From Halobacteriovoraceae bacterium (lineage in GTDB: Bacteria; Bdellovibrionota; Bacteriovoracia; Bacteriovoracales; Bacteriovoracaceae): a DNA stretch of 64,000 nt. The stretch is from the NCBI GenBank assembly GCA_002712005.1, contig PASP01000014.1, positions 372,001 through 436,000 on the forward strand, written 5' to 3'. This document shows, in pieces, positions 58,324 through 64,000 of the stretch (its first letter is position 1; each line of letters opens with the position of its first letter). Made by a program: the position numbers and the translations under genes. The notes under the pieces are model-generated. The model worked only from the letters and a program-made list of their open reading frames with translations. It did not search any database and was not told the DNA's origin.

Positions 58324-58962
58324 ATGAGATTTTTGCTGTGCGTATTAATCATTCTTTCCTCTATTTCAGTACGGTCCCAAGATGAACGGGTCTTTAGAGA
58401 ACTCCTTACCCATAAGATTCAAGAAGATAAAGAGAGAAGCCGTAAGCCCGAGTATGACTACAAAGCGAGGGGACACCGATATTATCTTGATTTGAATGGT
58501 GATGAACTCCCTGAGAGTTTCTTTATTTCTAAAAAAGATGGTGGAGATTGGCTCCAACTTTTTGATCGTGCAGGCGAGAAAATTTACGACTATAAATTCG
58601 ATACTATTGGTTCTTGGAGTCGAGTATTTAAATTACAAATGAGAAATATATCAGGTGAAGCAAAGCTGGTGATCTTATACTTCTATGAAGGCATTACTCG
58701 TTATGTAAACTTTCAGGGGACGGCCAGAGTCTATTTCTTAACCTGGGACAATAACGATTTATCAACTCTATCTATGTATAAAGGTCCTTATGTTTGGGAT
58801 GAGAAAAGAGATTTTAGAAATCACTATCATCAAAGAAAATTTGAATTAAGTATGTTCGACTTTGATGATGATTACACACGTGAGATCGCGATTAGATATG
58901 GCAGTATAACTCGAGTCTATAAGTATATGGGCAAGGGGAAATGGGGAAGCTATACGAGGTAA
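58324..58962 (+). CDS. Secreted beta-rich protein of unknown function
   Basis: 212 aa. A signal peptide (LLCVLIILSSISVRS) is followed by a beta-rich domain with many Tyr, Trp and Phe. The repeated unit DLNGDELPESFFISKKDGGD recalls FG-GAP or calcium-binding DxDGxxE repeats, with a later FDFDDDYTREIAI of the same style, so integrin-like propeller repeats or Ca-dependent surface adhesion are possible. 58324 is the only ATG with a fitting signal peptide. Divergent from the orphan cluster and convergent with the small membrane gene. Confidence 0.65.
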   Translation: MRFLLCVLIILSSISVRSQDERVFRELLTHKIQEDKERSRKPEYDYKARGHRYYLDLNGDELPESFFISKKDGGDWLQLFDRAGEKIYDYKFDTIGSWSRVFKLQMRNISGEAKLVILYFYEGITRYVNFQGTARVYFLTWDNNDLSTLSMYKGPYVWDEKRDFRNHYHQRKFELSMFDFDDDYTREIAIRYGSITRVYKYMGKGKWGSYTR

Positions 58963-58977
58963 CTTCCCTGTAGTGAA

Positions 58978-59412
58978 TTAAGAAGCCTTATCCACTTTTT
59001 CTGTGGAACTTTGATCTTTGGACTCTTCTCTCTTTGATCTTTCTGCAGCAAGATCAATCGTTACTGATTGATGACCAGTATTTTCAGGTTGGCTTGGGGT
59101 ACTTGGAAAAGATTTCATCAAGGCAAACCACATGGCCAAAGGAAATGCTGCTAAGGCTGCGAAAAAAAGTAGTGTAGTCGTAACAGAGCTTGCTGAGCTG
59201 TAGTCCGACTTCTTACCCATTAATCTAATATGTTTACTTTGATCTTGATCCCATTTGAATCCAGGGTCGTTCTTTGGGTCAACTTCACGATATTGATCAA
59301 TAGATATACCAGTGACAGGCTCAACTGCTGGACTCCTTCCCATTGTAGAATAGGAGAAGAGTAAAGAAGCTATGAATAAGAAAAAGATTTTAGTATTTGT
59401 TTTTGAATTCAT
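58978..59412 (-). CDS. Small membrane protein of unknown function
   Basis: 144 aa. Signal peptide (IFFLFIASLLFSYSTMG), an acidic extracytoplasmic segment (PVTGISIDQYREVDPKNDPG) and a second hydrophobic helix (TTLLFFAALAAFPLAMWFALM). A charged, Ser/Glu/Lys-rich tail follows (RSKREESKDQSSTEKVDKAS), probably cytoplasmic. AAGGGTAACTAC precedes ATG 59412. Unrecognised. Confidence 0.62.
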   Translation of the reverse strand: MNSKTNTKIFFLFIASLLFSYSTMGRSPAVEPVTGISIDQYREVDPKNDPGFKWDQDQSKHIRLMGKKSDYSSASSVTTTLLFFAALAAFPLAMWFALMKSFPSTPSQPENTGHQSVTIDLAAERSKREESKDQSSTEKVDKAS

Positions 59413-59526: not shown

Positions 59527-60504
59527 CTAGAATAAATTCCTTTTCTGAGCCTCTCTAATAATTATAGCATCAATATCTTCTGCATAACGAGCTTCGAGTT
59601 CTCTATATTGAGATATTTTCTTATTTATGGCCGTGGGTGAAAGTCCCAACTTCTTTCGTATATTATCGTGAAGGGCTTGAGCATATTTTGAGATATCGGG
59701 ATGAGCATAGGGACCCATTTTTTTGAGCAGGTAACCTTGCTTGGCCAATCTCCACTCCATACGTGTAAGAAAATTTTCTTCTTTAACTAGACCGTCTTGG
59801 ACTGCCTTAAATCGATCAAAGACATTGAAGAGCTTATCTATCAAGCTCGCATTAAGTAACGCCCTATCTTGATTTTGATTAAAGTAGAAAAACTCAATTT
59901 GTCTCCCGTATCCAACGACTTCGATCATGGAGTATGGGATATCCTTGGAAATAGGAATTTCTTCAATATTAGGCTCAACCAACTTATAGGCTGCTTGGGC
60001 AATATAGGGGTGCTCTGGAAAATAACGGGAGAGCCACTCAAGTGACTCTGGTGCAGTTGAACGGCCCTCTTCTAATACATCGTGAATCATGGTGTAGAGA
60101 TAGGTTCGTTCGGCTTCTGATGAACTATCTCCAATTAGATATTCAGATAGGTAAGAGAGTTTTAAAGGGTGGGTGGCGTATGGGATCCCCTCTCCTCGTC
60201 TTATGCCTCTCATCTCTTCTAGATTTATTTGAGTGGCGAGTGCCTGCAGAGGTGTTTTTGGTGATCGCGGAAGAGTCTGGAATTCGTAGTATTGAATTGA
60301 CTCGTGCATCGCTTTGTCTTCAAGCTGGCGCAGATTTTTGTTTTGTTTTCGATAGCTTAACCGCGAGCTTAGAATAGAAGAGAGGAGTTCTTTGCAATTA
60401 AAGAGAGAACTAGGAGTTCTTGTCTGAGATTGATGAGAACATGAACTTATAGATAAGATCATAATTATCAAAAGGGTATAAATCTTAAATTGATGAGTTC
60501 TCAA
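59527..60504 (-). CDS. Lipoprotein with SpoT-like HD domain
   Basis: 325 aa. Lipobox LSISSC (Cys22) makes it a lipoprotein. Residues ~95-240 resemble the (p)ppGpp hydrolase HD domain of RelA/SpoT: IRRGEGIPYATHP (His112), MIHDVLEEG (His141-Asp142, with Glu145-Glu146) and SLIDKLFNVFDRF (Asp223, in the place of the usual ADRLHN). All four metal or catalytic positions of the HD set are present. There is no synthetase, TGS or ACT domain. A periplasmic or surface-exposed HD phosphohydrolase acting on nucleotides is the most economical reading; ppGpp as substrate is inference. TTG 60504 with an AGGAAA ribosome site. Confidence 0.72.
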   Translation of the reverse strand: MRTHQFKIYTLLIIMILSISSCSHQSQTRTPSSLFNCKELLSSILSSRLSYRKQNKNLRQLEDKAMHESIQYYEFQTLPRSPKTPLQALATQINLEEMRGIRRGEGIPYATHPLKLSYLSEYLIGDSSSEAERTYLYTMIHDVLEEGRSTAPESLEWLSRYFPEHPYIAQAAYKLVEPNIEEIPISKDIPYSMIEVVGYGRQIEFFYFNQNQDRALLNASLIDKLFNVFDRFKAVQDGLVKEENFLTRMEWRLAKQGYLLKKMGPYAHPDISKYAQALHDNIRKKLGLSPTAINKKISQYRELEARYAEDIDAIIIREAQKRNLF

Positions 60505-60557: not shown

Positions 60558-61403
60558 TTAGTTCGTAAGGATTTTAAAATGCATATGGGGATCACAGACA
60601 ACCATTTCACCTAATTTTAGGGGGTGCCAAATATTTTCACCGACTAGGGGCTCACTAGAAAAAATGAGATGGTTAATGACTCCAGTTTGAGTAGGAGCTT
60701 CACATTCGGGTGAGAAGCTTGGACAAATATCTCTTTCCTGGCATCTATTCTTGTAAGTAGAGTAGTGCAGGTTTTTACTACCCTGGAAAGCAATCATGAT
60801 TTTTCCATTGGTAATAATGAAAGTATAATAAGTGGCATCTGCACCGGAGTTATCTTTCTTAGCGGGCTCGCCAGCAATAGAAATTAATTTATTGATGGCC
60901 TCTCTTAAAGTTTTTGCGAATTTTTGTGTATCAATATCATGAGCATTCAGGTCATGTTCATCTTCTAAATAACTAAGAAGAAAATAGAAAATCAGTTCCG
61001 AGTCGGTGTCTCCTAATATGAAACGCCTAAACTTGGGAGAAACTTCTGCTAAAATAGAGTCTCTCTTGTCCTTATAGTCAGTGATATTCCCATTATGAGC
61101 AAATACCCAACTTCCATATTGAAAGGGGTGAGTGTTGAGAATATTATTATTACCAATTGTTGTTTTTCGAATATGGGCCAAAACCGTTTCTGAAGAAACA
61201 ATACCTGAAACCTTTTTAAAAATGGCATCACCAATTGCTGCTTTCGCGGACTTTACAACATGCGGACTATTTTGAACGTAATAGGCAACCCCCCAACCAT
61301 CGGGATGATCATTACTCTGGATTCCGAGAGCATTTTCAGCATCTACTAAACTTGAATGAACTTGACTTTGAATAACGGATCTAAAACCAAATAGCCTACA
61401 CAT
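60558..61403 (-). CDS. Class II glutamine amidotransferase (YafJ-like)
   Basis: Ntn-hydrolase domain: after Met removal the N-terminal Cys2 of MCRLFGFRS is the nucleophile. The family continues with DGWGVAYY, HIRKTT, NTHPFQYGSWVFAHNGNI and GDTDSELIFYF. At 281 aa it is of YafJ/EgtC type, without a synthetase domain; the substrate is unknown. The reading frame extends upstream to 61472, but only ATG 61403 exposes the catalytic Cys at position 2. Confidence 0.9.
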   Translation of the reverse strand: MCRLFGFRSVIQSQVHSSLVDAENALGIQSNDHPDGWGVAYYVQNSPHVVKSAKAAIGDAIFKKVSGIVSSETVLAHIRKTTIGNNNILNTHPFQYGSWVFAHNGNITDYKDKRDSILAEVSPKFRRFILGDTDSELIFYFLLSYLEDEHDLNAHDIDTQKFAKTLREAINKLISIAGEPAKKDNSGADATYYTFIITNGKIMIAFQGSKNLHYSTYKNRCQERDICPSFSPECEAPTQTGVINHLIFSSEPLVGENIWHPLKLGEMVVCDPHMHFKILTN

Positions 61404-61448
61404 AAGATCTATTATAACACTATTTGAAGAGGGAGAGGGGGAAGATAA

Positions 61449-61474
61449 AAGTGCCGGTTTTAAAACCGGCACTT
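61449..61474 (-). terminator. Terminator hairpin after the RND pump
   Basis: A perfect 26-base palindrome, AAGTGCCGGTTTT / AAAACCGGCACTT. On the minus strand it is followed by TTATC, a weak T-tail. It lies between the pump stop and the amidotransferase start. Confidence 0.75.
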
Positions 61475-61478
61475 AGAT

Positions 61479-64000
61479 TTAATATTTCTCAGAGGTTAAA
61501 TATTTATAAACTCGAGTATTTGAAACCTTTTCCATGAAATCTTCAATGATTCCAAAACCTGCAGGTACCCAAATTAGAGTTAATATGGTTCCTGTGGTAA
61601 GTCCCCAGGCCATGGCCATGGTTATAGGAACTAACATAGAGTCTGAACCACCAATACCATAGGCTGTAGGAAAGAGTCCTCCCATTGTTGTAATGGAAGA
61701 GGCCATAACAGGTTTAAGTCTAGTAACGGAAGCATGAACCAGAATCTCTTGCAAGGACATTTTTCCTTCTTCTTTCATTTGATTAATATAATCAATGAGA
61801 ATAATCCCGTTGTTCACGATAATACCGGCAAGTCCGATAATCCCAATCATTGCAAGGAAACTAATTGGACGATCATGGAGATAGAAAGATACTGATATCC
61901 CTAATAGTCCTAGAGGAATTGTCGTTACAATCAACGCAGGTGCCAGATAGGAACCAAAGATATAAACCATAATTCCATAGATTCCAATTACGGCGAGAAC
62001 CATTGCTGAAGCTAGAGAGTTAAGAGATTCTTTTGTACTTTCTTGCTCTCCACCATAGACTACAGATACATCATGGAATTCATCCTGAATTTCTTTCCAG
62101 TAGTCTGAAACAATTTTATTCGCTTGAATTGAAGTGATTTTCTCAACATCAACTGATGCCATTACCGTCTTAGCTCGCTTGTAATCGTAACGCTTAACCT
62201 GTGCTGCTCCATCCTTAATTTTGAAGTCAGCAAGAAGAGATAGAGGAACTAAGTTTCCTTTTGGGTCAGTCACTGTAATCTTTTTAAGATCTTCAATACT
62301 TGATTTAGATACATTTCCAAATTCTACTTTGAGATCAATTTCTTTATTGAGCAAAGTAACATTGGAAACAATAGATCCTGTTAGAGCAGTTCTAATAGTA
62401 TTTCCAATTTGAGATGCCGAAAGTCCAAGCCTAGAGATATAATCATTATTGAGATCAACAACCACCTCGTCAGGACCAAAAACATCATCAATCTTTTCAT
62501 CAAAAACGCCATCGACTTCTTCAAGCTTTTTGATCATCATATCGACTACTTTTTGCAAGTTTTCATCATTAGAAGAACGGAAAGTAACATTAACGGCTGT
62601 CCCAACTGGAGGCCCATTAATCTTTTCTTCAATAATGATAGTCTCTGCTTCTGGTATTTCCAGTTTTCTTAACTCTTTTAAGAAGTCAGTGTAGTGAACA
62701 TTGTATTTAGCATAGTCTGAAGCCATGACTTTTATAAGGAATACATTGTCCCCAACTTGTCCTCTTTGGTCTAAAAGGTTGACGAGTGTATAACCTGAGA
62801 AGGCAATTGTTTCTTGCAGCCATTTCTTCTCAATGGTTTCTTCAACTCTTTTAGATACTTTTTGAGCGATACTATCTGTATATTCTAGTGAACTATTTAC
62901 TGGGAGTTCTACTCTAATATCGTATTCTTCAGTTTGTTCAGCGGGAAATAAGATAAACTTATTAAATACAATCATAACCACAAATGAGAAGGCGATGATT
63001 AGAATCCCACCTAATGCTGAAATGTATCGATGCTTAACAACAACTTGCATAAGCTTTTCAAACTTTTTCGCAAATTTTTCGTACCATCCATTTGTTTCAT
63101 CCGTTTTCTTTTCAAGCTTAATATTTCTTCCCACAAAGTGAAGCCTCATAGGTAAGAGAATAAAACATTCAAGCAGACAGAAGAGTAATGCAGCGGTTAC
63201 AACAATCGGAATTGGAGTAATAAATCGCCCCATAATACCTGTGGTGGCAAGCATAGGTAAGAATGCAGATACAGTCGTCATGGCCGTCGCTGTAATTGGA
63301 ATCCATAAGTTAACAACGGAATCAATAGCAGCGTCGAGTGATTTCTGACCTTCCTCTCTTCTTCTTATATATTCTTCACTAATAACAACGGCATTATCAA
63401 CCAGCATACCCATTGCGATAATAAGGGCCAAGATTGAAATAGAGTTAAAGGTTAGACCAAAGCTTGGCATAAGCCCCACAGCTGCGAATAAACTCGTTGG
63501 TAGAGAGATGGCAACCATAAGTCCGATTCGTCCTGGCATAAAGAACATAAGTACTAAAATAACGACCACGATACCTGTAACACCATTGGAAGATAGAACG
63601 GCAAGTTTATCTTTAACTTTGATCCCTTCATCAGTGTAGACAAAGAATTCAAGGTCATTCTTGTATCGTTTTTCGTAAGTCTTAAGAATTTGTTTTACAT
63701 CTCTTACGAGCTCTAAAGTATCAGCACCCGCTTTCTTTTGAACACTTAAAAGAGTAGCTGCTTTGCCATTGTACCGCGTTTTGATGGTCGCATCTTCTTC
63801 TCCGTCTATAACGGTCGCGATATCCTTTAGTCTAATCTTCTTTCCAGAGAAAGAGGACCTCACAACGGTTTCACCCAATTCTTCCGCTGTTTCCACTTTA
63901 TTATCAATAGTAACAAGTTTTTGTTCTTTACCTAATTCTAGGTCTCCACCTGGGATATTGATATTTCGTGAAATGACAGCTTTTGTTACCTCATCTACAG
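61479..64000 (-). CDS. RND efflux permease (AcrB/HAE-like), 5' partial
   Basis: Inner-membrane proton-driven pump of the resistance-nodulation-division superfamily. The frame is open to the window edge (about 34 codons upstream of GTG 63896 read SRNINIPGGDLELGKEQKL, a normal RND segment), so the first ~200 residues are missing. The TM4 proton-relay motif is GMLVDNAVVISEEYIRRR (Asp followed by Asn, where AcrB has Asp-Asp), then porter-domain repeats and a second set of hydrophobic helices ending LMAWGLTTGTILTLIWVPAG. Drug, metal or lipid substrate cannot be inferred; the adaptor and outer-membrane channel would lie further right. Confidence 0.92.
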   Translation of the reverse strand, partial: VDEVTKAVISRNINIPGGDLELGKEQKLVTIDNKVETAEELGETVVRSSFSGKKIRLKDIATVIDGEEDATIKTRYNGKAATLLSVQKKAGADTLELVRDVKQILKTYEKRYKNDLEFFVYTDEGIKVKDKLAVLSSNGVTGIVVVILVLMFFMPGRIGLMVAISLPTSLFAAVGLMPSFGLTFNSISILALIIAMGMLVDNAVVISEEYIRRREEGQKSLDAAIDSVVNLWIPITATAMTTVSAFLPMLATTGIMGRFITPIPIVVTAALLFCLLECFILLPMRLHFVGRNIKLEKKTDETNGWYEKFAKKFEKLMQVVVKHRYISALGGILIIAFSFVVMIVFNKFILFPAEQTEEYDIRVELPVNSSLEYTDSIAQKVSKRVEETIEKKWLQETIAFSGYTLVNLLDQRGQVGDNVFLIKVMASDYAKYNVHYTDFLKELRKLEIPEAETIIIEEKINGPPVGTAVNVTFRSSNDENLQKVVDMMIKKLEEVDGVFDEKIDDVFGPDEVVVDLNNDYISRLGLSASQIGNTIRTALTGSIVSNVTLLNKEIDLKVEFGNVSKSSIEDLKKITVTDPKGNLVPLSLLADFKIKDGAAQVKRYDYKRAKTVMASVDVEKITSIQANKIVSDYWKEIQDEFHDVSVVYGGEQESTKESLNSLASAMVLAVIGIYGIMVYIFGSYLAPALIVTTIPLGLLGISVSFYLHDRPISFLAMIGIIGLAGIIVNNGIILIDYINQMKEEGKMSLQEILVHASVTRLKPVMASSITTMGGLFPTAYGIGGSDSMLVPITMAMAWGLTTGTILTLIWVPAGFGIIEDFMEKVSNTRVYKYLTSEKY

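Follow-up and report, generated by a model that had tools for sequence, protein, structure and literature searches.

The window analyzed here is a 64,000-nucleotide stretch from a member of the Bacteriovoracaceae (source assembly of 3.96 Mb in 20 contigs), a species that, judging from its family, presumably preys on bacteria. At positions 59527..60504 on its minus strand lies a gene (P0001) encoding a 325-amino-acid lipoprotein with an HD domain, hereafter the HD-lipoprotein; all features located by coordinates within this gene or its two borders are likewise on the minus strand. The open reading frame starts with TTG, and an AGGA lies about six bases 5' of the start. Scans for a promoter and a terminator of this gene returned chance-level results. 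Because its GC content (0.40) is near that of the window (0.377), the gene is not clearly foreign by composition.

The gene sits between a class-II glutamine amidotransferase gene (60558..61472; Pfam GATase_4, 2.4e-29) and a gene for a 144-amino-acid secreted protein (58978..59412), and synteny identified these two conserved genes as the borders of an insertion site. In five genus mates the amidotransferase gene is followed directly by the 144-amino-acid gene and then by a gene for a 212-amino-acid protein, with no HD gene at the junction, which is interrupted in the source genome only. No orthologues of the HD-lipoprotein were found in 6 genus, 129 family, and 369 phylum genomes, and scans for close relatives in collections of genome contigs and viral contigs also found none. 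Since the conserved junction lacks the gene in the genus mates and no orthologue exists, we interpret the gene as a lineage-specific gain; for want of orthologues, purifying selection cannot be shown. The preliminary description had placed the gene in a cluster of secreted orphan genes, a view of the whole neighborhood that synteny ruled out, as the 144- and 212-amino-acid neighbors are conserved in genus mates and the HD gene alone is unique to this genome. No immunity gene adjoins the HD gene, both neighbors being conserved in the genus. A mobile-element origin was pursued by looking for flanking direct repeats, and the single 8-mer recovered was not meaningful.

Two other features of this neighborhood were recorded. 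The genes for the 212- and 144-amino-acid secreted proteins (window 58324-59412) form a conserved pair beside the amidotransferase in most genus mates and have no Pfam match. On the other side of the locus (window 61397-61479), the genes for an RND pump and the glutamine amidotransferase are adjacent, and a TetR-like regulator gene that stands between these two genes in five genus mates is missing from the position.

In the N-terminus of the HD-lipoprotein, MRTHQFKIYTLLIIMILSISSC|S, a basic n-region and a hydrophobic core precede the lipobox I-S-S-C22, with Ser at +2; together they form a lipoprotein signal peptide at residues 1-22 (60439..60504). We regard the protein as very probably an exported lipoprotein. 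Seven residues after the lipidated Cys, an R-T-P-S-S motif occupies residues 29-33 (60406..60420), as identified by motif enrichment and a module profile (A3). It is followed by a second Cys (C37) and a short amphipathic helix, CKELLSSI (60373..60396), which sequence comparison showed to be common to lipoproteins carrying Fic, WHH, and amidoligase domains.

Comparisons within the family drew attention to this N-terminal region. When the whole protein was searched against 129 family genomes, the top non-self matches lay at residues 5-84 and not in the HD domain; they were L002, which has a Fic domain, L003, which has WHH nuclease domains, and L085, all of them lipoproteins. The common layout is a lipobox followed about seven residues past the Cys (further in L003) by R-x-P-[AS]-S, often with a second Cys and an amphipathic helix after it. 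We therefore defined a set of RxP[AS]S lipoproteins by a lipobox Cys and an R-x-P-[AS]-S motif about 5-18 residues further on; the portion in common among them is about 25 amino acids after the Cys. With its spacing from C22 to R29, the HD-lipoprotein fits this definition, and we assign it to the set with high confidence.

To remove selection bias, we scanned for R.P[AS]S alone in ORFs from 1.24 Mb of the source genome and 0.8 Mb of the family genome G086, counting an occurrence as behind a lipobox when it fell within 26 residues after the lipobox Cys. Three of 20 occurrences in the source genome were directly behind a lipobox, where 0.08 were expected, as were 6 of 11 in G086 (0.06 expected), giving nine against about 0.14 expected for both genomes. 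None of seven control motifs, made up of permutations and a Lys variant, occurred behind lipoboxes. The contigs of G086 had been picked for profile matches, and hence the test lies in the positional contrast and not in how many occurrences each genome has. At an E-value of 1e-5 the module profile found matches in 36 genomes, all from the window's own family, Bacteriovoracaceae, and gave no significant match in other families among the 369 phylum genomes.

The domains that follow the module are diverse. Among about 47 module-bearing proteins, Pfam identified Fic, WHH (two), Peptidase_C92 (two), papain, Amidoligase_2 (two), and PLD (two) domains, as well as calcineurin-like phosphoesterase, animal haem peroxidase, glutamate-synthase-like, catalase-like, and ricin-B lectin domains, and many had no Pfam domain. 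Some of these proteins, such as those with haem peroxidase or glutamate-synthase-like domains, are not obvious toxins. The Fic and WHH proteins are patchy in occurrence, the former being present in 33 of 129 family genomes and the latter in 3 of 129. The Bacteriovoracaceae lipoproteins that combine the module with Fic, WHH nuclease, amidoligase, papain, C92, phospholipase-D, or ricin-B-lectin domains (L002, L003, L110, L104, L281, L107, L008, L101, L114, L115, and L112) may represent a catalog of predator effectors. A further RxPSS lipoprotein, of 708 amino acids, is encoded on contig C7 of the source genome (L341:17451-19622, minus strand) and carries an animal-type haem peroxidase domain (E 3.4e-86).

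We then considered the remainder of the protein, where an HD domain appears to span residues 85-245, approximately, in which the H/HD/D metal site is complete and Glu145 is present. The preliminary description had proposed an exported lipoprotein with a SpoT-like HD domain and had named its key residues; translation placed H112, H141, D142, and D223 exactly at the positions given, and the lipobox Cys at residue 22. For comparison we used 75 diverse HD_4 proteins taken from viral contigs, which we take to be alarmone hydrolases because a profile of their alignment, searched against the PDB, retrieved MESH1, Rel catalytic domains (among them Rel_Seq), small alarmone hydrolases, and a (p)ppApp hydrolase. 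The invariant columns of this alignment hold R102, P108, Y109, H112, H141, D142, E145, and D223 in the HD-lipoprotein. Thus all four ligand positions of the H/HD/D metal set are present in an RSH sequence context: His112 at metal-ligand position 1 (60169..60171; GIPYATHP) and the dyad His141-Asp142 (60079..60084), both supported by HMMs and the alignment, and Asp223 at position 4 (59836..59838; LIDKLFN). Arg102 (60199..60201) is invariant in the HD_4 family, and we take it to be the equivalent of the guanine-stacking Arg44 of Rel; Asn227 (59824..59826) is 99% conserved. The check on histidine conservation came out in favor of the proposal, with the qualification that, no orthologues existing, the comparison was with distant HD_4 proteins.

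Profile searches agreed with this alignment. HMMs trained on SpoT-like HD proteins of phages and a plasmid and on Rel/SpoT proteins of the phylum scored the HD-lipoprotein at 17-24 bits, against top scores of 5.7-8.3 among 2000 shuffles. When 3592 ORFs from 1.24 Mb of the source genome were ranked, it came second (E 7e-6), behind the genome's own Rel/SpoT, and the next non-SpoT ORF had an E-value of 0.39. Searches of phages and plasmids with tblastn gave weak matches (E 0.1-1), of which the relevant ones were SpoT-like HD proteins aligned to residues 87-237 and came from unrelated sources, namely Vibrio phages, the Burkholderia phages BcepSauron and BcepSaruman, and a Polaromonas plasmid. Matches to lambdoid CI repressors (tblastn) and to AmpC-like proteins (phmmer) were discarded as chance similarities in the wrong region. 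Pfam, NCBIfam, PHROG, PADLOC, and a phmmer search of the PDB with the single protein gave nothing relevant or significant. The curated Pfam HD_4 model did not match the HD-lipoprotein at E-values up to 10, and a PF13328 search of the genome found Rel/SpoT only. Another HD_4 protein was noted in genome G059 (L074; G059:C34:106000-107400), a cytoplasmic-looking protein of 195 amino acids of the W..RK..Y / DKxHN subtype, which also occurs on phages and a plasmid.

The domain also departs from the HD_4 family. The catalytic E-D pair after the HD dyad, invariant in the family, is Glu145-Glu146 here (60067..60072), with Glu146 at the Asp82-equivalent position that holds Asp in 75 of 75 proteins. Neither the His of AHxGQ (column 73; His in 75 of 75) nor its conserved Gln (Q100) is found at the aligned position, and the K202 position, usually a basic residue on the substrate side, is a Gln. 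The RelA/SpoT spacing that had been claimed holds in its general form and is looser in detail, with 29 residues from H to HD and 81 from HD to D compared with 24 and 66 in E. coli SpoT (24-32 and 45-76 in the viral HD_4 set). Because these changes lie about the metal site and on the side of the substrate, fold and metal binding are safer claims than any particular substrate. An HD_4-type fold with a metal site is, in our judgment, highly likely. Hydrolysis of alarmones is possible, and it is doubtful that an alarmone is the true substrate.

Given the HD_4 alignment, AlphaFold2 returned a helical, HD-like model (pLDDT 78, pTM 0.75) that is not independent evidence, as it was steered by the supplied alignment; from the single sequence without an alignment, confidence was low (pLDDT 43, pTM 0.27). 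Foldseek against a viral structure library gave probabilities of 0.99-1.00 for the first five matches, the sole functionally named one being a phosphohydrolase. Against the PDB no match had E < 0.001; E-values were not significant, and S. aureus Rel had the highest probability among the matches listed (Rel 7oiw: probability 0.63, E 1.6). As far as a steered model and weak PDB matches allow, the HD-like model and the viral HD matches speak against a non-HD fold, the outcome that would have counted against the original proposal. Together, the lipobox, HMM scores, and HD_4 alignment support the view that the protein is an exported lipoprotein and that its HD domain is of the alarmone-hydrolase type.

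Several other explanations of these data were weighed. The motif set could be a coincidence in an orphan helical lipoprotein that is not an HD protein at all, as the lack of Pfam, NCBIfam, and PADLOC matches and of significant PHROG or phmmer matches would allow, together with the low-confidence single-sequence model. We think this very improbable, given the gap between the HD-lipoprotein and the next non-SpoT ORF in the own-genome search and the agreement of both the PY-H-HD-E and D-K-L-x-N blocks with HD_4. A pseudo-enzyme or binding protein, in which an HD fold, its catalysis lost or altered, was kept after gene gain, would account for the missing invariant His and conserved Gln, the Asp-to-Glu change, the longer spacing, and the absence of orthologues. 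Yet where identity is otherwise about 12-22%, the protein has retained R102, E145, and N227 along with all four metal ligands, which would be unlikely without selection for catalysis, and we consider this explanation unlikely.

A third possibility retains catalysis and changes its purpose. MESH1 dephosphorylates NADPH, and the HD-lipoprotein could be a periplasmic or surface phosphohydrolase that strips phosphate from nucleotides of lysed prey (NADPH, nucleoside polyphosphates) for uptake, rather than an effector. Export as a lipoprotein and an intact metal site would fit this nutrient scavenging, and several module-bearing proteins are housekeeping-like (haem peroxidase, calcineurin-like phosphoesterase, glutamate synthase-like). 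The gene is, however, an insertion in a single genome rather than a conserved scavenging gene, and nuclease, Fic, protease, or phospholipase domains are found in many of its sister proteins, so that scavenging seems to us a rather weak contender. The reading we prefer, tentatively, is that the HD-lipoprotein is one member of a modular set of exported lipoproteins, is probably directed at prey, and carries a diverged domain resembling those of alarmone hydrolases.

Known systems offer partial parallels for such a protein. With the small alarmone hydrolases, MESH1, and the Rel-SpoT hydrolase domain (HD_4, PF13328) it shares R-x(5)-P-Y-x-x-H, HDxxE, and DKLxN in order and all metal ligands; it differs in being exported, in having about 80 residues before and about 80 after the domain, in its EE for ED, in lacking the His and Gln of AHxGQ, and in going undetected by Pfam HD_4. 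Exported alarmone synthetases, RSH-family enzymes with a Sec signal peptide (PMC12691689), are similar as exported RSH-type enzymes encoded by isolated genes without a neighboring immunity gene, but have a synthetase domain where the HD-lipoprotein has a hydrolase-type domain and a lipid anchor. The main text of that report mentions neither lipoproteins nor Bdellovibrio. The SitA lipoprotein toxins of myxobacteria (PMC8546572) resemble the present set, by description, in combining a common N-terminal part with interchangeable C-terminal domains, which in SitA are toxin domains. SitA proteins, however, have escort domains of about 375 amino acids rather than a short RxP[AS]S module (in a protein of 325 amino acids in all), have cognate SitI immunity genes, of which the HD-lipoprotein gene has none, and use TraA-dependent outer-membrane exchange. 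The predicted predator effectors of Bdellovibrionota in a survey of the lipocone (PMC12419801) are likewise secreted, diverse, immunity-less, and proposed to act on prey; the lipocone is another domain, and no RxP[AS]S lipoprotein module was seen in the passages of that survey consulted here. In the open-access literature we found no description of an exported alarmone hydrolase or of a lipobox and RxP[AS]S lipoprotein motif.

Under the preferred reading, the lipobox and RxP[AS]S module would target the protein to the envelope or cell surface by the route of the family-specific Bacteriovoracaceae lipoproteins, a helical linker would follow, and the diverged HD domain would be displayed on, or released from, the predator toward prey. 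The short stretch after the anchor could serve as a sorting or cleavage site; by analogy with SitA, for which the post-lipobox stretch was proposed as a cleavage site (PMC8546572), the module may send the protein to the envelope's outer face or allow its release. The metal-dependent phosphohydrolase could then act on a nucleotide inside the prey or derived from it, whether (p)ppGpp, (p)ppApp, or some other. Homology makes alarmones the obvious candidates, and exported alarmone synthetases exist (PMC12691689). The presence of the module with effector-like C-termini in related lipoproteins strengthens the idea, already raised in the preliminary description, that the protein acts on prey, with delivery as the inferred step, and we put forward a prey-directed effector as a tentative assignment. 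More speculative, and in our estimate improbable as a whole, is that the lipobox and RxP[AS]S form a dedicated sorting or release tag through which the Bacteriovoracaceae send an arsenal of enzymes to their prey, with the HD member as an alarmone or nucleotide hydrolase that switches off the prey's stringent response, a counterpart of the exported synthetases.

The main interest of the HD-lipoprotein is that it belongs to a family-specific set of modular exported lipoproteins. Inside cells, enzymes of the HD_4-type fold ordinarily break down ppGpp, a signal of starvation. Before exported synthetases were described, alarmone enzymes were regarded as cytoplasmic; a hydrolase-type domain that is exported would supply the other half, missing so far. 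For the family, the RxP[AS]S module provides a sequence handle with which to list the exported enzyme repertoire of these predators, and its five residues, through tagging and mutation, offer a direct way of testing by what means predators place enzymes in or on their prey.
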